From Yinghuangia soli (GTDB lineage Bacteria; Actinomycetota; Actinomycetes; Streptomycetales; Streptomycetaceae), in contig NZ_JAKFHA010000001.1 of the NCBI RefSeq assembly GCF_021502675.1, positions 458,855 to 522,854 of the forward strand: a stretch of DNA of 64,000 bases. The letters are read 5' to 3'. The notes beneath the pieces were generated by a model, which had not been told where the DNA came from, searched no databases, and saw only the letters and a list, made by a program, of their open reading frames with translations. Positions 1 through 7,375 of the stretch are shown here, one piece after another. How positions within the stretch are numbered: the stretch's first letter is position 1; every line of letters starts with the position of its first letter. The position numbers and the translations under genes were made by a program.

Positions 1-945
1 GTCGCTGATGAAGCAGCACAGCATGTGCTTGCGGAAGATCTCGGCGGGCCCCGAAACCCCCTCGGGGAAGGCCGCCTTGGTCCAGCCGGAGTGCCGGCGC
101 TGGACGTGCTCGGCGCGCCACAGGAAGTACGGAATCCACCCGATGTCGCCCTCGGTGAGCGAGAAGCGCAGGTCGGGGAAGCGGTGCCAGATGTCCGCCC
201 AGATCAGTTCGACGAGCGAGAACGTCGACATCACCGACGACAGCGTCATGTTGACGCTCGCGGGCGCGTCGGACGAGGACGGGGCCCGGCGCGAGGACGA
301 ACCCACGTGCAGGCACAGCACGGTGCCCTCGTCGCAGGCGGCCGCGAACAGCGGGTCCCAGTAGCGGGTGTGGATGCTGGGCAGTTGCAGCGCCTCGGGG
401 TTCTCCGAGAAGGTCACCGCGTGCACGCCCTTGGCGGCCAGCCGGCGCAGTTCGGCGGCCGCGTGCTCGACGTCGTACAGCGGCAGGATGCCGCACGGGA
501 TGAACCGCTCGGGGTACGCCCCGCACCATTCGTCGACGTGCCAGTCGTTGTAGGCGCGGATCATCACCTCGTTGACGGCGCGGTCCGGGCCCTGCCACAG
601 CACCTGCCCGGAAAAGCCGGTGAAGTTGGGGAAGTTGAGGCCGGCGAGCTGGCCGCCGGCGCTCATGTCCCGGACCCGTTCGTGCACGTCGTAGCAGCCG
701 GGGCGCATCTCGTCGTAGCGGCTGGCGTCGATGTTGAACATCTCGGGCGGCTTGCCGGCCACCGCGTTGAGGCCGAGGTCGCGGCCGCGGGCGTCGCCGT
801 ACATCCACTGCTGGACGCCGTCGTCGCGCACCACGACGCGCGGGGCCCGGTCGCGGTAGCGCGCCGGGACGTGGGCGTCGAACATCGTGGCCGGCTCACA
901 GATGTGGTCGTCCACGCTGACGAGGATCAGGTCGTCCTTGCGCAC
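1..945 (-). CDS. Amidohydrolase family 2 metal-dependent hydrolase (partial, 3' end beyond window)
   Basis: The 315 visible codons read as an amidohydrolase-2 (ACMSD-like TIM-barrel) protein. The N-terminus carries VSVDDHICEP, the Asp-x-His variant of the metal-binding start motif, and the middle has the typical LPLYDVEHAAAEL and CLHVG segments. The C-terminus is cut by the window edge. The start is GTG at 945, chosen because GGAGG lies 5 nt upstream. Such enzymes hydrolyse or decarboxylate cyclic intermediates and are common in actinobacterial lipid and sterol catabolic clusters. It has its own candidate operator at 970-987, so it may be transcribed separately from the alpha/beta hydrolase upstream. 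The substrate is unknown. Confidence 0.88.
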   Translation of the reverse strand, partial: MRKDDLILVSVDDHICEPATMFDAHVPARYRDRAPRVVVRDDGVQQWMYGDARGRDLGLNAVAGKPPEMFNIDASRYDEMRPGCYDVHERVRDMSAGGQLAGLNFPNFTGFSGQVLWQGPDRAVNEVMIRAYNDWHVDEWCGAYPERFIPCGILPLYDVEHAAAELRRLAAKGVHAVTFSENPEALQLPSIHTRYWDPLFAAACDEGTVLCLHVGSSSRRAPSSSDAPASVNMTLSSVMSTFSLVELIWADIWHRFPDLRFSLTEGDIGWIPYFLWRAEHVQRRHSGWTKAAFPEGVSGPAEIFRKHMLCCFISD

Positions 946-969
946 GACTGCCTCCAGGCACTTATTTCT

Positions 970-987
970 CTATCTTTATAAGAATAG
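970..987. promoter_or_regulatory. Putative GntR operator upstream of the amidohydrolase
   Basis: The 18-bp element CTATCTTTATAAGAATAG is an imperfect inverted repeat 25 bp upstream of the amidohydrolase start, in an unusually AT-rich spot. It matches the site at 4121-4138 at 14 of 18 positions. I infer that the GntR regulator encoded at 3318-4082 binds both. Confidence 0.55.
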
Positions 988-1003
988 GAATGCCCGGCCG
1001 ATG

Positions 1004-1921
1004 CTAGCCGTTGGCGGCAACGGAGTCGAGGAGTCCGAGCAGCGCTCCGGCGAACACGTCGTTGTCGTCGCCGACCACCATGTGGCCCGCGTCCGCGACG
1101 TCGGCGAAGGTGGATCCGGGGATCAGGTCGAGCATTTCGTGCACCGCCTCCAGGCTCACCACGTCGGACTGGCGGCCGCGCACGACGAGGGTGGGCACCG
1201 CGATCTTGCGGGCCGCGTCGGCGAGGCGCTCCGGGGTGACGACCGGGCCGCGGCCGGTAGTGCCGCCCAGGCTGCCCATGAACTGCGGGTCCCAGTGCCA
1301 GTACCAGCGGCCGTCGGCGTGCTGCCGGACGTTGCGGGCCAGCTTGGCGTGGTCGGTCTGCCGGGGCCGGTCCGGCTGGTACTCGTGGAGCGCGTCGGCG
1401 ACCTCGCCGAGGTCCGCGAAGCCGGCGCGGTGCGCGAGCATGAACGCGGCGATGCGGTCGGTGCCCTCCCGCTCGGTGCGGTGCGTGATGTCGACGAGCA
1501 CCAGGCCGCGGGCGTACGCGTCGCCCTCCCCCTCGCCTTCGGCGATCAGCGAGATCCACCCGCCGAACGACGCGCCGACGAGGACCGGCGGGCGGCCCTG
1601 CTCGGCGGCCACCGCCCGGGACACCGCGCGCACGTCGGCGACGAACGCGTCGATGCTGTAGTCGCCGTCCGCCGACCAGTCGCTCTCGCCGTGCCCGCGC
1701 TGGTCGAGGGCGAGCGCGGTCCAGCCCTGCCCGGCCAGGGTGGCCGCGGAGCGCGTCCACGACCCGCGGGCCTGGCCGCCGCCGTGCAGCAGCAGGACGG
1801 TCCCGGCCGACCCGCCCTCCGGGTCCCACCGGTCGCCGACCACCTCGAGGGGGCCGCCGGCGTCGTTGCGGGAGCCGTATTCGGCGGCGTGGAACCGCAC
1901 CTGACGGGGCGTCGGGGGCAT
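1004..1921 (-). CDS. Alpha/beta-fold hydrolase
   Basis: A 305-residue cytosolic alpha/beta hydrolase. LLLHGGG (residues 43-49) supplies the oxyanion loop, GASFG places the nucleophile at Ser118, DQRGHGES follows the strand-4 region, and DAGHMV gives the catalytic His near residue 280. The ATG at 1921 was chosen because AGGAG stands upstream and the conserved fold begins shortly after; an in-frame start at 1978 would add an unconserved tail. It lies downstream of the thiolase on the same strand with a 135-bp gap. It probably hydrolyses an ester, thioester or C-C bond in the same pathway; the substrate cannot be read from the sequence. Confidence 0.88.
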   Translation of the reverse strand: MPPTPRQVRFHAAEYGSRNDAGGPLEVVGDRWDPEGGSAGTVLLLHGGGQARGSWTRSAATLAGQGWTALALDQRGHGESDWSADGDYSIDAFVADVRAVSRAVAAEQGRPPVLVGASFGGWISLIAEGEGEGDAYARGLVLVDITHRTEREGTDRIAAFMLAHRAGFADLGEVADALHEYQPDRPRQTDHAKLARNVRQHADGRWYWHWDPQFMGSLGGTTGRGPVVTPERLADAARKIAVPTLVVRGRQSDVVSLEAVHEMLDLIPGSTFADVADAGHMVVGDDNDVFAGALLGLLDSVAANG

Positions 1922-1989
1922 GGCGACTCTCCTAGCGGTCGTACCGGCCCGCCCGGGGGGCGGGACGTAGCGGAACACAGGCGTACGCG

Positions 1990-2008
1990 GCCCCTGGGGC
2001 CCAGGGGC
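1990..2008. terminator. GC-rich hairpin between thiolase and hydrolase genes
   Basis: A near-perfect GC palindrome (arms GCCCCTGGG and CCCAGGGGC around one base) sits 49 bp after the thiolase stop. It could attenuate or end thiolase transcription. No U-run follows, so this is weak evidence. Confidence 0.3.
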
Positions 2009-2056
2009 GTGCGCGCCGCATCTTCGCGCGCGGACTGCGAATGATCCATACGTGCG

Positions 2057-3271
2057 TCAGAGGAGTTCGAAGACGGCGGCGAGCCCTTGGCCGCCCCCTA
2101 TGCACATGGTCTCCAGGCCGTAGCGGGCGTCGCGGCGCCGCATTTCGTGGAGCAGGGTGGCCAGGATGCGGCCGCCGGTGGCGCCGACCGGGTGGCCGAG
2201 GGAGATGCCCGAGCCGTTGACGTTGAGCCGGTCGAAGTCGGTGGCCCCGAAGCGCCATTCGCGGGTGCAGGCGAGGACCTGCGGGGCGAAGGCCTCGTTG
2301 AGTTCGATCAGGTCGATGTCGGCGAGGGCGAGCCCGGCGCGTTCGAGGGCGGCCGCGGTGGCCGGGACGGGGCCGATGCCCATGGTGGCGGGCGGGACGC
2401 CGGCGACGGCCCAGGAGACGAGGCGGGCGTAGGGGCGCAGTCCCAGGCGCTCGGCCTCGTCCCGGTGCGTGACCAGGCAGAGCGCCGCGCCGTCGTTCTG
2501 GCCGCTGGCGTTGCCCGCGGTGACGGTCGCGTCCGGGTCCTGACGGGACATCACCGGGCGGAGCCGGGCCAGGGTTTCGGGGGTGGTGTCGGCGCGGGGG
2601 TGCTCGTCGGTGTCGACGAGGACATCACCGGACCGGGCGGGCACGGTGACCGGGACGATCTCGTGCGCGAAGACGCCGGACTTCTGCGCGGCGACCGCGT
2701 TCATGTGCGAGCGGTAGGCCAGTTCGTCCTGCTCCTCGCGGCCGATGCCGTAGTCGCGGCGCAGGTTCTCGGCGGTCTCCAGCATGCCGCCGGGCACCGG
2801 GAAGTTCCGGCCGCCCGCGGTGACGCGGCCGCGGGCCAGGCCGTCGTGCAGGGCTATGCCGTCGCCGCGGGCGCCCCACCGCATCTGGGTGGAGTAGAAG
2901 GCGGTCTGGCTCATGCTCTCCGCGCCGCCCGCCAGCACGCGGTCGCTGATGCCGCCCGCGACCTGGAGTGCGGCGTACAGGACGGCCTGCAGGCCGGAGC
3001 CGCAGCGGCGGTCGACCTGGAGGCCGGTGACCTCGACCGGCAGGCCCGCATCGAGGGCGACCACACGGCCTATCGCGGGCGCCTCGCCGTTGGGGTAGCA
3101 CTGGCCGAGCAGGACGTCGTCGATCCGGGCCGGGTCCAGTCCGGTGCGCCGGACGAGTTCGCGGGCCACGGTGGCGCCCAGTTCGGCGGCGGTGACGTCC
3201 CGGAAGACGCCGCCGTACCGGCCCACCGGCGTCCGCAGCGGCTCGCAGATGACCGCCTCGCGCATGAGCAT
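2057..3271 (-). CDS. Thiolase (acetyl-CoA acetyltransferase family)
   Basis: A 404-residue thiolase, which cleaves 3-ketoacyl-CoA with CoA (or condenses acyl-CoAs). All catalytic blocks are visible: nucleophilic Cys90 in DRRCGSGLQA, the LNEAFA segment, His360 in GISLGHPVGATGGR and the proton-shuttling Cys390 in MCIGGGQGLA. Length is normal for the family. The start is ATG at 3271 with AAGG 9 nt upstream; a second ATG six bases on is possible. It follows the GntR gene by 46 bp on the same strand, so the two are probably cotranscribed. With the nearby CoA-transferase, SDR and MaoC hydratase it supplies the final step of a beta-oxidation-like route. Confidence 0.93.
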   Translation of the reverse strand: MLMREAVICEPLRTPVGRYGGVFRDVTAAELGATVARELVRRTGLDPARIDDVLLGQCYPNGEAPAIGRVVALDAGLPVEVTGLQVDRRCGSGLQAVLYAALQVAGGISDRVLAGGAESMSQTAFYSTQMRWGARGDGIALHDGLARGRVTAGGRNFPVPGGMLETAENLRRDYGIGREEQDELAYRSHMNAVAAQKSGVFAHEIVPVTVPARSGDVLVDTDEHPRADTTPETLARLRPVMSRQDPDATVTAGNASGQNDGAALCLVTHRDEAERLGLRPYARLVSWAVAGVPPATMGIGPVPATAAALERAGLALADIDLIELNEAFAPQVLACTREWRFGATDFDRLNVNGSGISLGHPVGATGGRILATLLHEMRRRDARYGLETMCIGGGQGLAAVFELL

Positions 3272-3317
3272 GAACGTCCGCCTTCCCCGTCGGGCGGTCC
3301 GGGCCGGGCGCCTTGCC

Positions 3318-4082
3318 TCAGCGCACGAGCCGGGACCGTACTCTGCGGGCCGCGTCCTCGCGGCCCGTGTAGCGCTGCGTCGCATCGAGGTGGCGGCTCG
3401 CGATCCGCGCGGCGCGGGCCGCGTCGCCCGCCTCGATGGCGTCGACGAGCTTCTCGTGATCGCGCAGGCCCGCATCGAAGGCCTCCTGCGCGGTCTGCGC
3501 GCCGGCCGCCGAGGCCTCGCGCACCCATTCCTCTTCGTGCCGCGACCACACCTGCTCCAGGCCGCCGACGACCAGGGCGAGCGTGGCGTTGCCGCAGCCG
3601 TCGACCAGCACCTCGTGGAAACGCCGGGCGGCGTGGTTGAACGCGGGCGTGTCGCCGGTCATCTCGCGCTGTTCGGCGAGCACGTCGCGCAGCGCCGGGA
3701 CGACCGTCGCGGACCGGTCCTCACGGCCCGCGCACAGCGCCGCGCAGATCGGTTCGAGTTCGAGCACCGCGGAGCCGAGGTCGGTCAGCGGGGCGCGCTC
3801 GGCCTCCAGGACGAGGGCCAGCGTGTACGCGACGCGCGCCGAGGTCGGCAGGTGCACGGTGCCGCCGCCGACGTTGCCGCGCCGCACGGTGACCAGGCCC
3901 TCGGTCTCCAAAATGCGCAGCGCCTCGCGCACCGAGGGGCCGCTCACGTTGAAGCGGGCCATGAGGTCTTCCTGCCGGGGCAGGCTCTCGCCCTGCCGCA
4001 GCCGACCGGCGAGGATCTCCTCGCGCAGATCGTCGGAGACCATCTCGGCCAGCCGGGGCTGGCGCATTTGCCGCTGACGCAT
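3318..4082 (-). CDS. GntR-family transcriptional regulator, FadR subfamily (FCD domain)
   Basis: A 254-residue regulator. Residues 8-75 form a GntR winged helix (LREEILAGRLRQGESLPRQ, SVREALRILETEGLV) and the rest is an all-helical FCD ligand-binding domain, including a His-rich segment (RRFHEVLVDG, then RHLDATQRY). FCD domains bind metal plus carboxylate or acyl ligands. Start ATG at 4082 has GGGAAG about 10 nt upstream. It heads the minus-strand catabolic genes and is divergent from the CoA-transferase. The inverted repeat at 4121-4138 in the shared promoter is its likely operator and a second copy lies at 970-987. An acyl-CoA or acid inducer is inferred. Confidence 0.92.
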   Translation of the reverse strand: MRQRQMRQPRLAEMVSDDLREEILAGRLRQGESLPRQEDLMARFNVSGPSVREALRILETEGLVTVRRGNVGGGTVHLPTSARVAYTLALVLEAERAPLTDLGSAVLELEPICAALCAGREDRSATVVPALRDVLAEQREMTGDTPAFNHAARRFHEVLVDGCGNATLALVVGGLEQVWSRHEEEWVREASAAGAQTAQEAFDAGLRDHEKLVDAIEAGDAARAARIASRHLDATQRYTGREDAARRVRSRLVR

Positions 4083-4120
4083 GGGGTCCGTGCTTCCCGT
4101 CCGGAGGTTCTGCCAGGGGT

Positions 4121-4138
4121 CTATCTTGCTAAAGATAG
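4121..4138. promoter_or_regulatory. Putative GntR operator in the divergent promoter
   Basis: CTATCTT and AAGATAG form a perfect 7-bp inverted repeat with a 4-nt spacer. It lies 39 bp upstream of the GntR start and 47 bp upstream of the CoA-transferase start. It is the only AT-rich stretch here and resembles the site at 970-987 (14 of 18 identical). Confidence 0.65.
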
Positions 4139-4184
4139 TAAGGTCTGGACCCGCCGCGCCGACGCAGCTTGGGAGGCCATGCCC

Positions 4185-5381
4185 ATGGACCACGCGCCGA
4201 GCCCCCCGCCGGAGGCAGCGGAGGACACCGAACCGGGCGCGGGTCCGCTGGCCGGCATCGTGGTGGTGGCCCTGGAGCAGGCGGTGTCCGCGCCGTTCGC
4301 GACCCGGCACCTGGGCGACTACGGAGCCCGCATCATCAAGGTGGAGCGGCCGGACGGCGGGGATTTCGCGCGCGACTACGACGACCTCGCGAGCGGCATG
4401 GGTGCGCATTTCACCTGGTGCAACCGCAACAAGGAGTCGGTCGCGCTCGACCTCGCCTCGCCCGAGGGGCGGCAGGCGATGGCCGCCCTGCTCGCGCGCG
4501 CGGACGTCTTCGTGCAGAACCTGGCGCCCGGTGCGGCCGCCCGACTCGGCCTGGGCGGCGCCGAATTGACGCAGCGTCATCCCCGGCTGGTGGTGTGCGA
4601 GGTGAGCGGCTACGGCGTGGGCGGGCCGTACGACGCGCGCCGCGCGTACGACGTGCTCGTGCAGGCGGAGGGCGCGGTGGCCACCGTGACCGGTTCGCTG
4701 GACGAGCCGCTCAAGGCGCAGGTGCCGGTCGCCGACCTGGCCACCGGCCTGTACGCGCTGTCCGCGATCACCACCGCGCTGCTGCACCGCGAACGCACCG
4801 GGCGCGGCTGCGTGCTGCAGGTCTCGATGCTCGACACGATCGCCGAACTCATGGGCTACTGCACGACGGTGGTGCGGCACGGTGGTACGCCCGAGGTGCG
4901 CCGTGGCATGAGCCACCCGGCCATCTCGCCGTACGACGCGTACCGTGCGGGCGACGGCCGCCATGTGGTGGTCAGCGTGACCAACGACCGCGAGTGGGCC
5001 CGCCTGGCCGAGCATCTGCTGGGCCGGCCCGAGTTGGCCCGCGACCCGGCGTTCGCGAAGAACCCGGACCGGGTCCGCAACCGCGCCGCGGCGGATGCGC
5101 TGATCTCCGCGGCGCTCGCCGCGCACACCGCGGACGCCGCCATTGCGCTGCTCGAAGCGGCCGGGGTGCCGTGCGGCAAGGTCAACTCGGTCGCCGAACT
5201 CGTCGACCACCCGCAGCTGACCGCGCGCGGCCGCTGGCAGCAGGTGGGCTCGCCGGTCGGCCCGATCCCCGCACTGCTGCCCCCGGTGGTGTCCGACACC
5301 TGGGCGCCGCGCCTGGATCCGGTCCCCGCACTGGGCGAGCACACGGCGAAGGTACTTGCGGATCTTGACGATCCGTCATAA
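4185..5381 (+). CDS. Family III CoA-transferase (CaiB/BaiF type)
   Basis: A 398-residue class III CoA-transferase that moves CoA between carboxylic acids. The N-terminal LAGIVVVALEQAVSAPFATR and DYGARIIKVERP blocks, RNKESVALDL, and the VPVADLATGLYA segment with nucleophilic Asp184 are all typical. ATG at 4185 is preferred over the in-frame ATG at 4179 because GGGAGG ends 8 nt before it and only 2 nt before the other. It is divergent from the GntR gene and shares its operator region, so it is probably the main regulated promoter. It would activate the pathway substrate to its CoA thioester. A 10-bp AT palindrome overlaps its stop codon (5379-5388). Confidence 0.92.
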   Translation: MDHAPSPPPEAAEDTEPGAGPLAGIVVVALEQAVSAPFATRHLGDYGARIIKVERPDGGDFARDYDDLASGMGAHFTWCNRNKESVALDLASPEGRQAMAALLARADVFVQNLAPGAAARLGLGGAELTQRHPRLVVCEVSGYGVGGPYDARRAYDVLVQAEGAVATVTGSLDEPLKAQVPVADLATGLYALSAITTALLHRERTGRGCVLQVSMLDTIAELMGYCTTVVRHGGTPEVRRGMSHPAISPYDAYRAGDGRHVVVSVTNDREWARLAEHLLGRPELARDPAFAKNPDRVRNRAAADALISAALAAHTADAAIALLEAAGVPCGKVNSVAELVDHPQLTARGRWQQVGSPVGPIPALLPPVVSDTWAPRLDPVPALGEHTAKVLADLDDPS

Positions 5382-5471
5382 GTACTTAACCCAGTCAATG
5401 ATTCCGGGAGTCGGGGCCGGGGACCGGATTCCCGGTGCGGCGCCCGCCGCCTCGCCGTGGGGAGAACCAGC

Positions 5472-6275
5472 ATGGGCCGACTGCAGGACCAGGTCGCGGT
5501 CATCACCGGCTCGGGAGCCGGGATCGGCCGCGGTATCGCCCGCAAGATGGCCGCCGAGGGCTCGCGCATCCTGGTCAACGACATCCGCGCCGAGCACGCC
5601 GAGGCGGCTGCCAAGGCGATCGCCGACGACTTCGGCGTCGACGTGCTCGCGATACCCGCCGACGTCACCGTGAAGGAGCAGGCGGTCGGCCTGGTCGAGG
5701 CCGCGGTGGCCCGCTGGGGCCGCATCGACACGCTCGTCAACAACGCCTGGGGCGGCGGCCGCATCAACCGCCTGGAGAACAAGACCGACGAGATGCTCGA
5801 ACACGGCCTCCATATGGGCCTGTGGGCGGGCTGGTGGACGATGCGCGCGGCCTTCCCGCACATGCGGGACGCGGGCGGCGGGAGCATCGTCAACGTCGCC
5901 TCCCTCAACGGCGTCAACGCGCACCAGTTCACCGCGGAGTACAACATCTCCAAGGAGGCGCTGCGCGCGCTGACCCGCTCGGCGGCCCGCGAGTGGGCGC
6001 CGCACCAGATCCGCGCGAACGTCATCTGCCCCGGTGCCAAGACCGACGCCTTCGCCGCGTACGCCCGGATCAACCCGGAGGGCGCCGCCGAGGCCGAGGC
6101 CCGCAACCCGATGGGGCGCATGGGCGACCCGGAGGACGACATCGGCGGCGTCGCCGTCTTCCTTGCCTCCGCGGACGCCCGGTATCTGACCGGCAACACC
6201 CTGTTCGTCGGCGGCGGCAGCCACATCAACGGCGTCTCCTGGGCCCCGGTCCCGGAGGAGGAGCGCGCGAAGTAG
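5472..6275 (+). CDS. Short-chain dehydrogenase/reductase
   Basis: A 267-residue classical SDR with TGSGAGIG (residues 12-19) for NAD(P) binding, NNAWG, catalytic Ser144 and the YNISK pair Tyr157/Lys161. Start ATG at 5472 has GGGGAG 7 nt upstream. It follows the CoA-transferase by 90 bp on the same strand and would oxidise a hydroxyacyl-CoA or alcohol intermediate of the same pathway. Asp at the end of strand 2 (LVNDI) points to NAD(H) preference by family rules. The substrate is not identifiable. Confidence 0.92.
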   Translation: MGRLQDQVAVITGSGAGIGRGIARKMAAEGSRILVNDIRAEHAEAAAKAIADDFGVDVLAIPADVTVKEQAVGLVEAAVARWGRIDTLVNNAWGGGRINRLENKTDEMLEHGLHMGLWAGWWTMRAAFPHMRDAGGGSIVNVASLNGVNAHQFTAEYNISKEALRALTRSAAREWAPHQIRANVICPGAKTDAFAAYARINPEGAAEAEARNPMGRMGDPEDDIGGVAVFLASADARYLTGNTLFVGGGSHINGVSWAPVPEEERAK

Positions 6276-6391: not shown

Positions 6392-7375
6392 GTGATCGAT
6401 GCCGACGGAACCGCGACGCTGGAACTCGCGCTCGAACAGCACCGGACCGAGTTGACCGGCTACTGCTACCGCATGCTCGGCTCCCCGTTCGAGGCCGAGG
6501 ACGCCGTCCAGGACACGATGGTCCGCGCCTGGCGCGGCTACGACAAATTCGAGGGCCGCGCGGCCCTGCGGTCGTGGCTGTACCGCATCGCCACCAACGT
6601 GTGCCTGGACATGCTGGGCGGCAAGGAGCGCAAGGCCAGGCCGACCGACTTCACCACGGTCGGCTCGGCCTCGGACCCCTCCCTCGCCACCCACCCGGAG
6701 AACACCTGGCTGGCCCCGACGCCGGACCACAAGGTCCTCGTCGGCGGCGACCCGGCCGACGTCGTGGTCGCGCGCGACTCGGTGCGGCTGGCGTTCGTCG
6801 CCGCGCTGCACCACCTGCCGGCCCGGCAGCGCGCCGTGCTGATCCTGCGCGAGGTGCTGGCCTGGCCGGCCGCCGACGTGGCGGAGCTGCTGGACACCTC
6901 GGTCGCCTCGGTCAACAGCGCCCTGCAGCGTGCCCGCGCCACGCTGGCCGCGGCCGATGTGGCCGCGACCGACCTCGAGGAGCCGGACGACGAGGCGCAG
7001 CGGGTCCTGCTGGCCAAGTACGTCAAGGCGTTCGAGACCTACGACCTGGAGTCGCTGGCCGCGCTGCTGCACGAGGACGTCACGCTGTCCATGCCGCCGT
7101 TCGAGCTGTGGCTGCGCGGCGCCGACGAGATCCGCACCTGGATGCTCGGCACCGGCAACGGCTGCCGCGGCTCGCGCCTGGTCCCGGTGGTGGCCGCCAA
7201 CGGCACGCCGGCGTTCGGGCAGTACCGCCCGGCCGGGCCGGGGCGGTACGAGCCGTGGGCGCTCCAGGTCATCGAGATCGCCGACGGCCGCATCGTCGGC
7301 CTCAACTCGTTCCTGGACACCGATCAGCTGTTCCCGCTGTTCGGCCTGCCGCCGCACCTCGAGGACGAGGACTAG
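6392..7375 (+). CDS. ECF RNA polymerase sigma factor with SnoaL-like C-terminal domain
   Basis: A 327-residue extracytoplasmic-function sigma factor. Sigma region 2 (residues about 15-85, AEDAVQDTMVRAWRGYDKF) and region 4 (about 130-185, LPARQRAVLILREVLAWPAADVAELL) are followed by a SnoaL/NTF2-like domain (about 200-320) that in this sigma group replaces an anti-sigma factor as the ligand-sensing module. GTG at 6392 is chosen since no other start fits the conserved N-terminus. A TAGGCT hexamer 8 nt upstream suggests a leaderless transcript. The stop overlaps that of the convergent STAS gene by 4 bp. Target genes are unknown. Confidence 0.88.
   Translation: MIDADGTATLELALEQHRTELTGYCYRMLGSPFEAEDAVQDTMVRAWRGYDKFEGRAALRSWLYRIATNVCLDMLGGKERKARPTDFTTVGSASDPSLATHPENTWLAPTPDHKVLVGGDPADVVVARDSVRLAFVAALHHLPARQRAVLILREVLAWPAADVAELLDTSVASVNSALQRARATLAAADVAATDLEEPDDEAQRVLLAKYVKAFETYDLESLAALLHEDVTLSMPPFELWLRGADEIRTWMLGTGNGCRGSRLVPVVAANGTPAFGQYRPAGPGRYEPWALQVIEIADGRIVGLNSFLDTDQLFPLFGLPPHLEDED

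Follow-up and report, generated by a model that had tools for sequence, protein, structure and literature searches.

Two 18-bp palindromes in a 64,000-nucleotide stretch of the Yinghuangia soli genome (here the window), site 1 (CTATCTTTATAAGAATAG, positions 970-987) and site 2 (CTATCTTGCTAAAGATAG, 4121-4138), are likely to be operators of a FadR/FCD-type GntR repressor encoded at 3318-4082, which would regulate its own gene together with an acyl-CoA catabolic regulon. Actinobacteria have many GntR/FCD regulators, few of them with a known operator. The occurrence of the sites is non-random, and computation links them, in a conserved manner, to one group of regulators and to one lineage of the enoyl-CoA hydratase (ECH) family. 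Judged from these patterns, the operator is very probably real, and so is a regulon of larger extent. An earlier note on this DNA had assigned both sites to the GntR protein and taken them to mark a catabolic regulon, and the conserved links between sites and genes, together with a weight matrix derived from orthologues only, indicate that it was very probably right.

Two intergenic palindromes in the window

The earlier note placed both 18-mers correctly and its count of 14 identical positions out of 18 is exact; each element is also palindromic by itself at 14 of 18 positions, and neither is assigned to a strand. When the window was scanned for the strict pattern CTATCTTNNNNAAGATAG, that is, CTATCTT-N4-AAGATAG, with up to three mismatches tolerated, only site 1 (two mismatches) and site 2 (none) were recovered, and 100 dinucleotide shuffles gave a mean of 0.08 matches and never reached two. 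Both sites are intergenic. Site 1 lies inside a 58-bp gap between the stop codon of a hydrolase gene (1004) and the GTG start codon of an amidohydrolase gene (945), 25 nt from the latter. Site 2 lies midway in the 96-bp divergon (4083-4178) that separates gntR from a CoA-transferase gene, with 39 nt between it and the ATG of gntR (4082) and 41 nt between it and that of the CoA-transferase gene (4179); this last start was corrected by hand, the crude gene caller having run the open reading frame (ORF) through site 2. The description of both sites as AT-rich islands stands at the scale of 40 bp, where the GC content is 37.5% at site 1 and 47.5% at site 2 (the lowest 0.03% and 0.4% of the window, respectively). 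Over 100 bp, however, the values rise to 55% and 62%, with the whole window averaging 72%, so that the islands are mostly the sites themselves and provide no independent evidence.

Recurrence of the element

Five Streptosporangiaceae loci with regulators 55-56% identical to this one contain 14 sites in 103.6 kb, where 0.1 would be expected, and eight loci from family f6 contain eight sites in 159 kb (0.45 expected), one apiece beside gntR. Nine loci of distant homologues, part of those fetched, contain two sites in 186 kb (0.25 expected). Family f6 is probably mycobacterial, since a Mycobacterium metagenome-assembled genome (L037) sits among its rows in the tree. Of the 22 sites in these 13 closer loci, the crude gene caller puts 21 between genes and one inside a probably spurious ORF. 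Over whole genomes, at two mismatches or fewer, the site beside gntR is present in six of the eight f6 genomes, in four of which (G504, G542, G528 and G431) it is the sole such match, and in the other two (G549 and G612) it has three mismatches.

A weight matrix was built from these relatives' sites alone, with the Y. soli genome excluded; the loci had been picked by regulator homology, but the training sites by the pattern of the earlier note. Applied to 232 kb of Y. soli DNA (12 stretches selected for holding candidate sites), the matrix gave its top score, 31.4, to a third site; site 1 scores 27.7 and site 2 scores 27.1. Sites from the loci of gntR paralogues are interleaved with those of the cluster in this ranking, and no other independent place in the window scores above 10.8. 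The third site, CTATCTTTATAATGATTG (C1:454369-454386), came from the genome scan. It begins the series 5,455 bases away from site 1 and, being 4,486 bases ahead of the window, was out of sight of the earlier note. It occupies a short gap behind an acyl-CoA dehydrogenase gene, 36 nt ahead of a run of seven genes on the same strand which encode a 439-aa protein of no matched family, an ECH, an acyl-CoA dehydrogenase, two further ECH proteins and two AMP-forming acyl-CoA ligases.

The genes next to the sites are conserved as well. The second gene of the run behind the third site (L016:12176-13018) encodes an ECH that shares 54-57% identity with the product of a gene lying at 55-110 nt from a site in L033, L035, L036 and L053, and 47-52% with an ECH that is divergent from gntR, or beside the gntR divergon, in L149, L152, L153 and L156. 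The same ECH lineage is therefore linked to a site in three lineages, which is the strongest indication that the sites are functional. Both acyl-CoA ligases have relatives of 44-57% identity beside sites in Streptosporangiaceae loci, and the thiolase of the window is 69% identical to one encoded about 8 kb from the f6 gntR in L148.

Across the whole Y. soli genome the strict pattern occurs once without mismatch, three times at one mismatch or fewer, nine times at two or fewer and 31 times at three or fewer. Of the nine matches at two mismatches or fewer, three are gathered in 8.7 kb around gntR, which for randomly placed matches has a probability of about 1e-4; at three mismatches or fewer a reversed-pattern control yields 20, so the loose matches are mostly noise. 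Four more of the nine places are in paralogue loci on contigs C28 and C50, one is on C4 and one on C33. The last of these, CAATCTTTATGAAGAAAG (L021:7493-7510; C33:45492), lies 19 nt ahead of a gene for a 583-aa acyl-CoA dehydrogenase-like protein, scores 20.9 with the matrix and is a candidate extra member of the regulon. A match at C5:70135, which overlaps the start of a small ORF, may be a chance occurrence in coding sequence. Similar clusters occur at two loci, L018 (C28:30000-49000) and L019 (C50:10000-29000): both contain a paralogue of gntR together with genes for an amidohydrolase and for acyl-CoA dehydrogenases, and both have related sites. Their amidohydrolases are 96% identical; their other genes look less alike, so that these seem to be two real clusters and not one assembled twice.

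The regulator is rare in its own order, where two of 293 genomes, this one included, have a match at E 1e-40; in the class, 70 of 394 genomes match at E 1e-30. The closest regulators found are from Streptosporangiaceae. Given this distribution, the cluster (3318-6275) may have been acquired.

The regulator and its probable DNA code

The 254-aa product of gntR (3318-4082, minus strand), the presumed binder of both sites, contains a GntR winged helix-turn-helix (HTH; PF00392, 66.7 bits against a cut-off of 27) and an all-helical FCD C-terminal domain (PF07729, 68.3 bits against 24.3). Its best NCBIfam match, the NanR model, remains under the cut-off (106.3 bits against 260), as does the PdhR model (66.9 against 330). 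Three residues ahead of the conserved F-H of its FCD domain stands an Ala, and most aligned relatives have Ala, Gly or Ser at this place; the aligned LldR (2di3) has an Asp there, which we take to be a metal binder. Two further His residues are retained.

Operators of the FadR subfamily are palindromes of the type TKGT/ACMA with GT and AC 2-3 nt apart, BioR and NanR being named as exceptions, and lone sites usually occupy the middle of a divergon (PMC4494728). The repressors PdhR, LldR, FadR, GlcC and DgoR resemble the present protein in joining a GntR HTH to an FCD-type domain, in placing a palindrome centrally between the regulator gene and a divergent neighbour and in their catabolic targets. 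They differ in their DNA code: E. coli FadR reads G through Arg-35 and Arg-45 (PMC4494728, Table 1), whereas the arms here are CTATCTT and AAGATAG spaced by 4, and alignment with PdhR and NanR places Glu and Gly, not the base-reading arginines, at HTH positions 28 and 38. BioR is likewise a FadR-subfamily regulator whose operator, TTATMKATAA, departs from TKGT/ACMA (PMC4494728), but its motif is another one and its genes are those of biotin (PMC4554459). NanR also has an operator of several half-sites (PMC8012715), but it binds direct repeats, whereas the core of the present element is an inverted repeat. The matrix shows that it is the CTATC and GATAG arms and the spacing of 4 that are conserved. 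The centre is variable, and in several f6 sites it reads TTGTACAA, which amounts to TKGT/ACMA boxes at zero spacing.

At HTH positions 28 and 38 the Streptosporangiaceae regulators have Glu and Leu, the SPP group of f6 has Glu or Asp and Pro, and regulators of SLV type have Glu and Leu. As the SLV type shares these residues, the change at these positions accompanies the group and by itself does not predict the site. The idea that only regulators with an S-x-P recognition helix have the site was rejected, because seven of eight SLV-type loci read at 20 kb hold an intergenic site with two or three mismatches. Six of these seven sites are in one divergon of a luciferase-like and an acyl-CoA dehydrogenase gene (in L162 the dehydrogenase was not called, and the assignment follows from a near-identical site and flanks). 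The 3.7-kb loci of SLV-type regulators contain no site (L037 was read at 20 kb). Among SRP loci, L167 has one intergenic site at three mismatches, L154 two poor ones, and L168 and L169 none. A search for shared palindromes upstream of SLV, SKP, SRP and SYP/SHP regulators gave no result.

A further half-site may be part of some of these operators, two half-sites lying at spacing 4 and another at 13, that is, one 9-bp step further. A possible third half-site, TAAGGTCTG, abuts site 2 (4139-4147, no strand assigned); its score of 1.9, with a flank mean of -16.6 and a chance of about 0.08 in AT-rich DNA, makes it only a hint. The corresponding place scores 0.8 at site 1 (chance about 0.12) and -5.1, which is to say none, at the third site. 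Elsewhere an extra half-site abuts the palindrome in all eight f6 sites (scores 2.2-11.6) and in all eight further Y. soli sites (4.9-11.9; five at paralogue gntR loci and three elsewhere), and exceeds a score of 2 in one of the 14 Streptosporangiaceae sites. On this scale flank means are about -14 to -17, and 1.5% of the AT-rich 9-mers of the window reach 4.9. Independent cases are few, since the f6 sites are orthologous and two of the Y. soli loci are near-copies. At L025:7044-7070 (C7:119043 and on) there is an array of 9-bp half-site-like units, CCATCATGG-CCATGATAG-CCATGATGG-TGATGAAAG. We offer only tentatively a wider reading in which the group lost both G-reading arginines and came to read a code of its own, CTATCTT-N4-AAGATAG, in part with a third half-site in 9-bp phase and more than one dimer on a tripartite operator, and then radiated with this operator over many acyl-CoA catabolic clusters of this genome, Streptosporangiaceae and f6.

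Extent and control of the proposed regulon

Across site 2 from gntR lies the gene for a family III CoA-transferase (4179-5381, plus strand; PF02515), followed, after a 90-bp gap that is free of sites, by that for a short-chain dehydrogenase (5472-6275, plus; PF13561), whose place in the gene order suggests that it belongs to the regulon. On the minus strand, a thiolase gene (2057-3271; PF00108/PF02803) begins 46 bp after gntR and an alpha/beta hydrolase gene (1004-1921; PF00561/PF12697) 135 bp after the thiolase. Behind site 1 the amidohydrolase gene (Amidohydro_2; 1-945, minus; PF04909) runs out of the window, its complete form being L016:18499-19800, and next comes a gene for a 111-aa protein without a family match. 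The earlier note had the two sites tie amidohydrolase, thiolase, hydrolase and CoA-transferase together. This does not hold for the thiolase and the hydrolase: neither has a site of its own, and the gaps upstream of them (3272-3317 and 1922-2056) contain nothing nearer to the pattern than seven mismatches. Their tie to the regulon is a shared strand and neighbourhood with gntR, to which the thiolase adds its counterpart in L148, and they would be members only if co-transcribed with gntR. The substrate of the pathway could not be named, because own-genome matches to the FadD3-family, IpdE2, EchA19 and pimeloyl-CoA dehydrogenase models all fell under their cut-offs. The next gene in the window (6392-7375) resembles, as read from its sequence, an ECF sigma factor carrying an additional domain at its C terminus.

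We infer that the protein binds and represses at the sites and answers to a ligand, and that co-transcribed genes supply the enzymes of one pathway. A GntR dimer would sit on CTATCTT-N4-AAGATAG at three places, namely the divergon, ahead of the amidohydrolase gene and ahead of the seven-gene acyl-CoA run, its occupancy of site 2 providing both autoregulation of gntR and control of the CoA-transferase. Because the near ends of the sites are 25-41 nt from start codons, repression by occlusion is, from position alone, the most likely mode at the amidohydrolase gene, the regulator's own divergon and the acyl-CoA operon. The releasing ligand would be an intermediate of the pathway, either a carboxylic acid or an acyl-CoA, in keeping with the carboxylic acid ligands of the FadR subfamily (PMC4494728).

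Several results weigh against this reading. The earlier note had put both sites in promoters; their intergenic position is borne out, but a sigma-70-type promoter scan of 900-4300 found none at either site, and the promoters were an extrapolation (a terminator scan was likewise without result). One arm of site 1 is imperfect, accounting for its two mismatches. TKGT/ACMA boxes, a common though not universal feature of the subfamily, are missing from sites 1 and 2 and the third site. Neither the amidohydrolase nor the hydrolase has a match at E 1e-20 among the Streptosporangiaceae and f6 loci; other Amidohydro_2 proteins are encoded in the clusters of the own paralogues and of f6, but they are 19-26% identical to that of the window. 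At two mismatches or fewer, whole-genome totals are 0-4 in the eight f6 genomes (2-5 for the reversed control) and likewise 0-4 in six f6 genomes whose regulators are of SLV type; in four Streptosporangiaceae genomes they are 4-8, with 2-4 for the control. As the f6 counts are not above control, it is the position of the sites, not their number, that is informative. Lastly, no site was found within 20 kb of regulators of similar identity in three of three SKP loci, two of two SYP/SHP loci and L037. With SLV sites weaker and SRP sites sparse, the operator type marks part of the regulator group, not all of it.

Three other explanations have to be considered. The sites could be operators chiefly of another regulator that shares them, either a gntR paralogue of this genome or a protein of another family. 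Cross-binding is conceivable, as three paralogues, 45-46% identical, also have such sites nearby. This is nevertheless unlikely, because the sites also accompany relatives of this regulator in other families and because those of the paralogues differ somewhat (CTATCATGG- and CTAACTTAG-type arms) and belong to their own loci on other contigs. It is also rather improbable that the GntR protein is an activator at the sites, or that it represses its own gene while activating the catabolic operons; activation as such is compatible with the computed results, but sites this close to start codons are ill placed for its classical form unless those codons are far from their promoters. A chance likeness of AT-rich intergenic DNA, for which one might cite the noisy loose matches in the genome, is very improbable and largely refuted by the site counts in the relatives' loci and by the orthologue-only matrix, given the 0.08 matches expected in the window, the recurrence at related genes in two other families and the 16 points that separate the sites from the best other independent place in the window.

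A literature search of partial coverage returned no paper on the motif or on a matching cluster, and the motif is not among the predicted operators of M. smegmatis in the available portion of PMC2018728. The biological role of the regulator proposed here, as repressor of an acyl-CoA catabolic regulon, is ordinary; its DNA code is somewhat unusual for the subfamily. If true, an operator that can be read from sequence would make it possible to map, in many genomes, the regulons of acyl-CoA clusters that are otherwise anonymous, and its association with a group that lacks the usual base-reading arginines would offer a clean test of how DNA specificity changes within the family.

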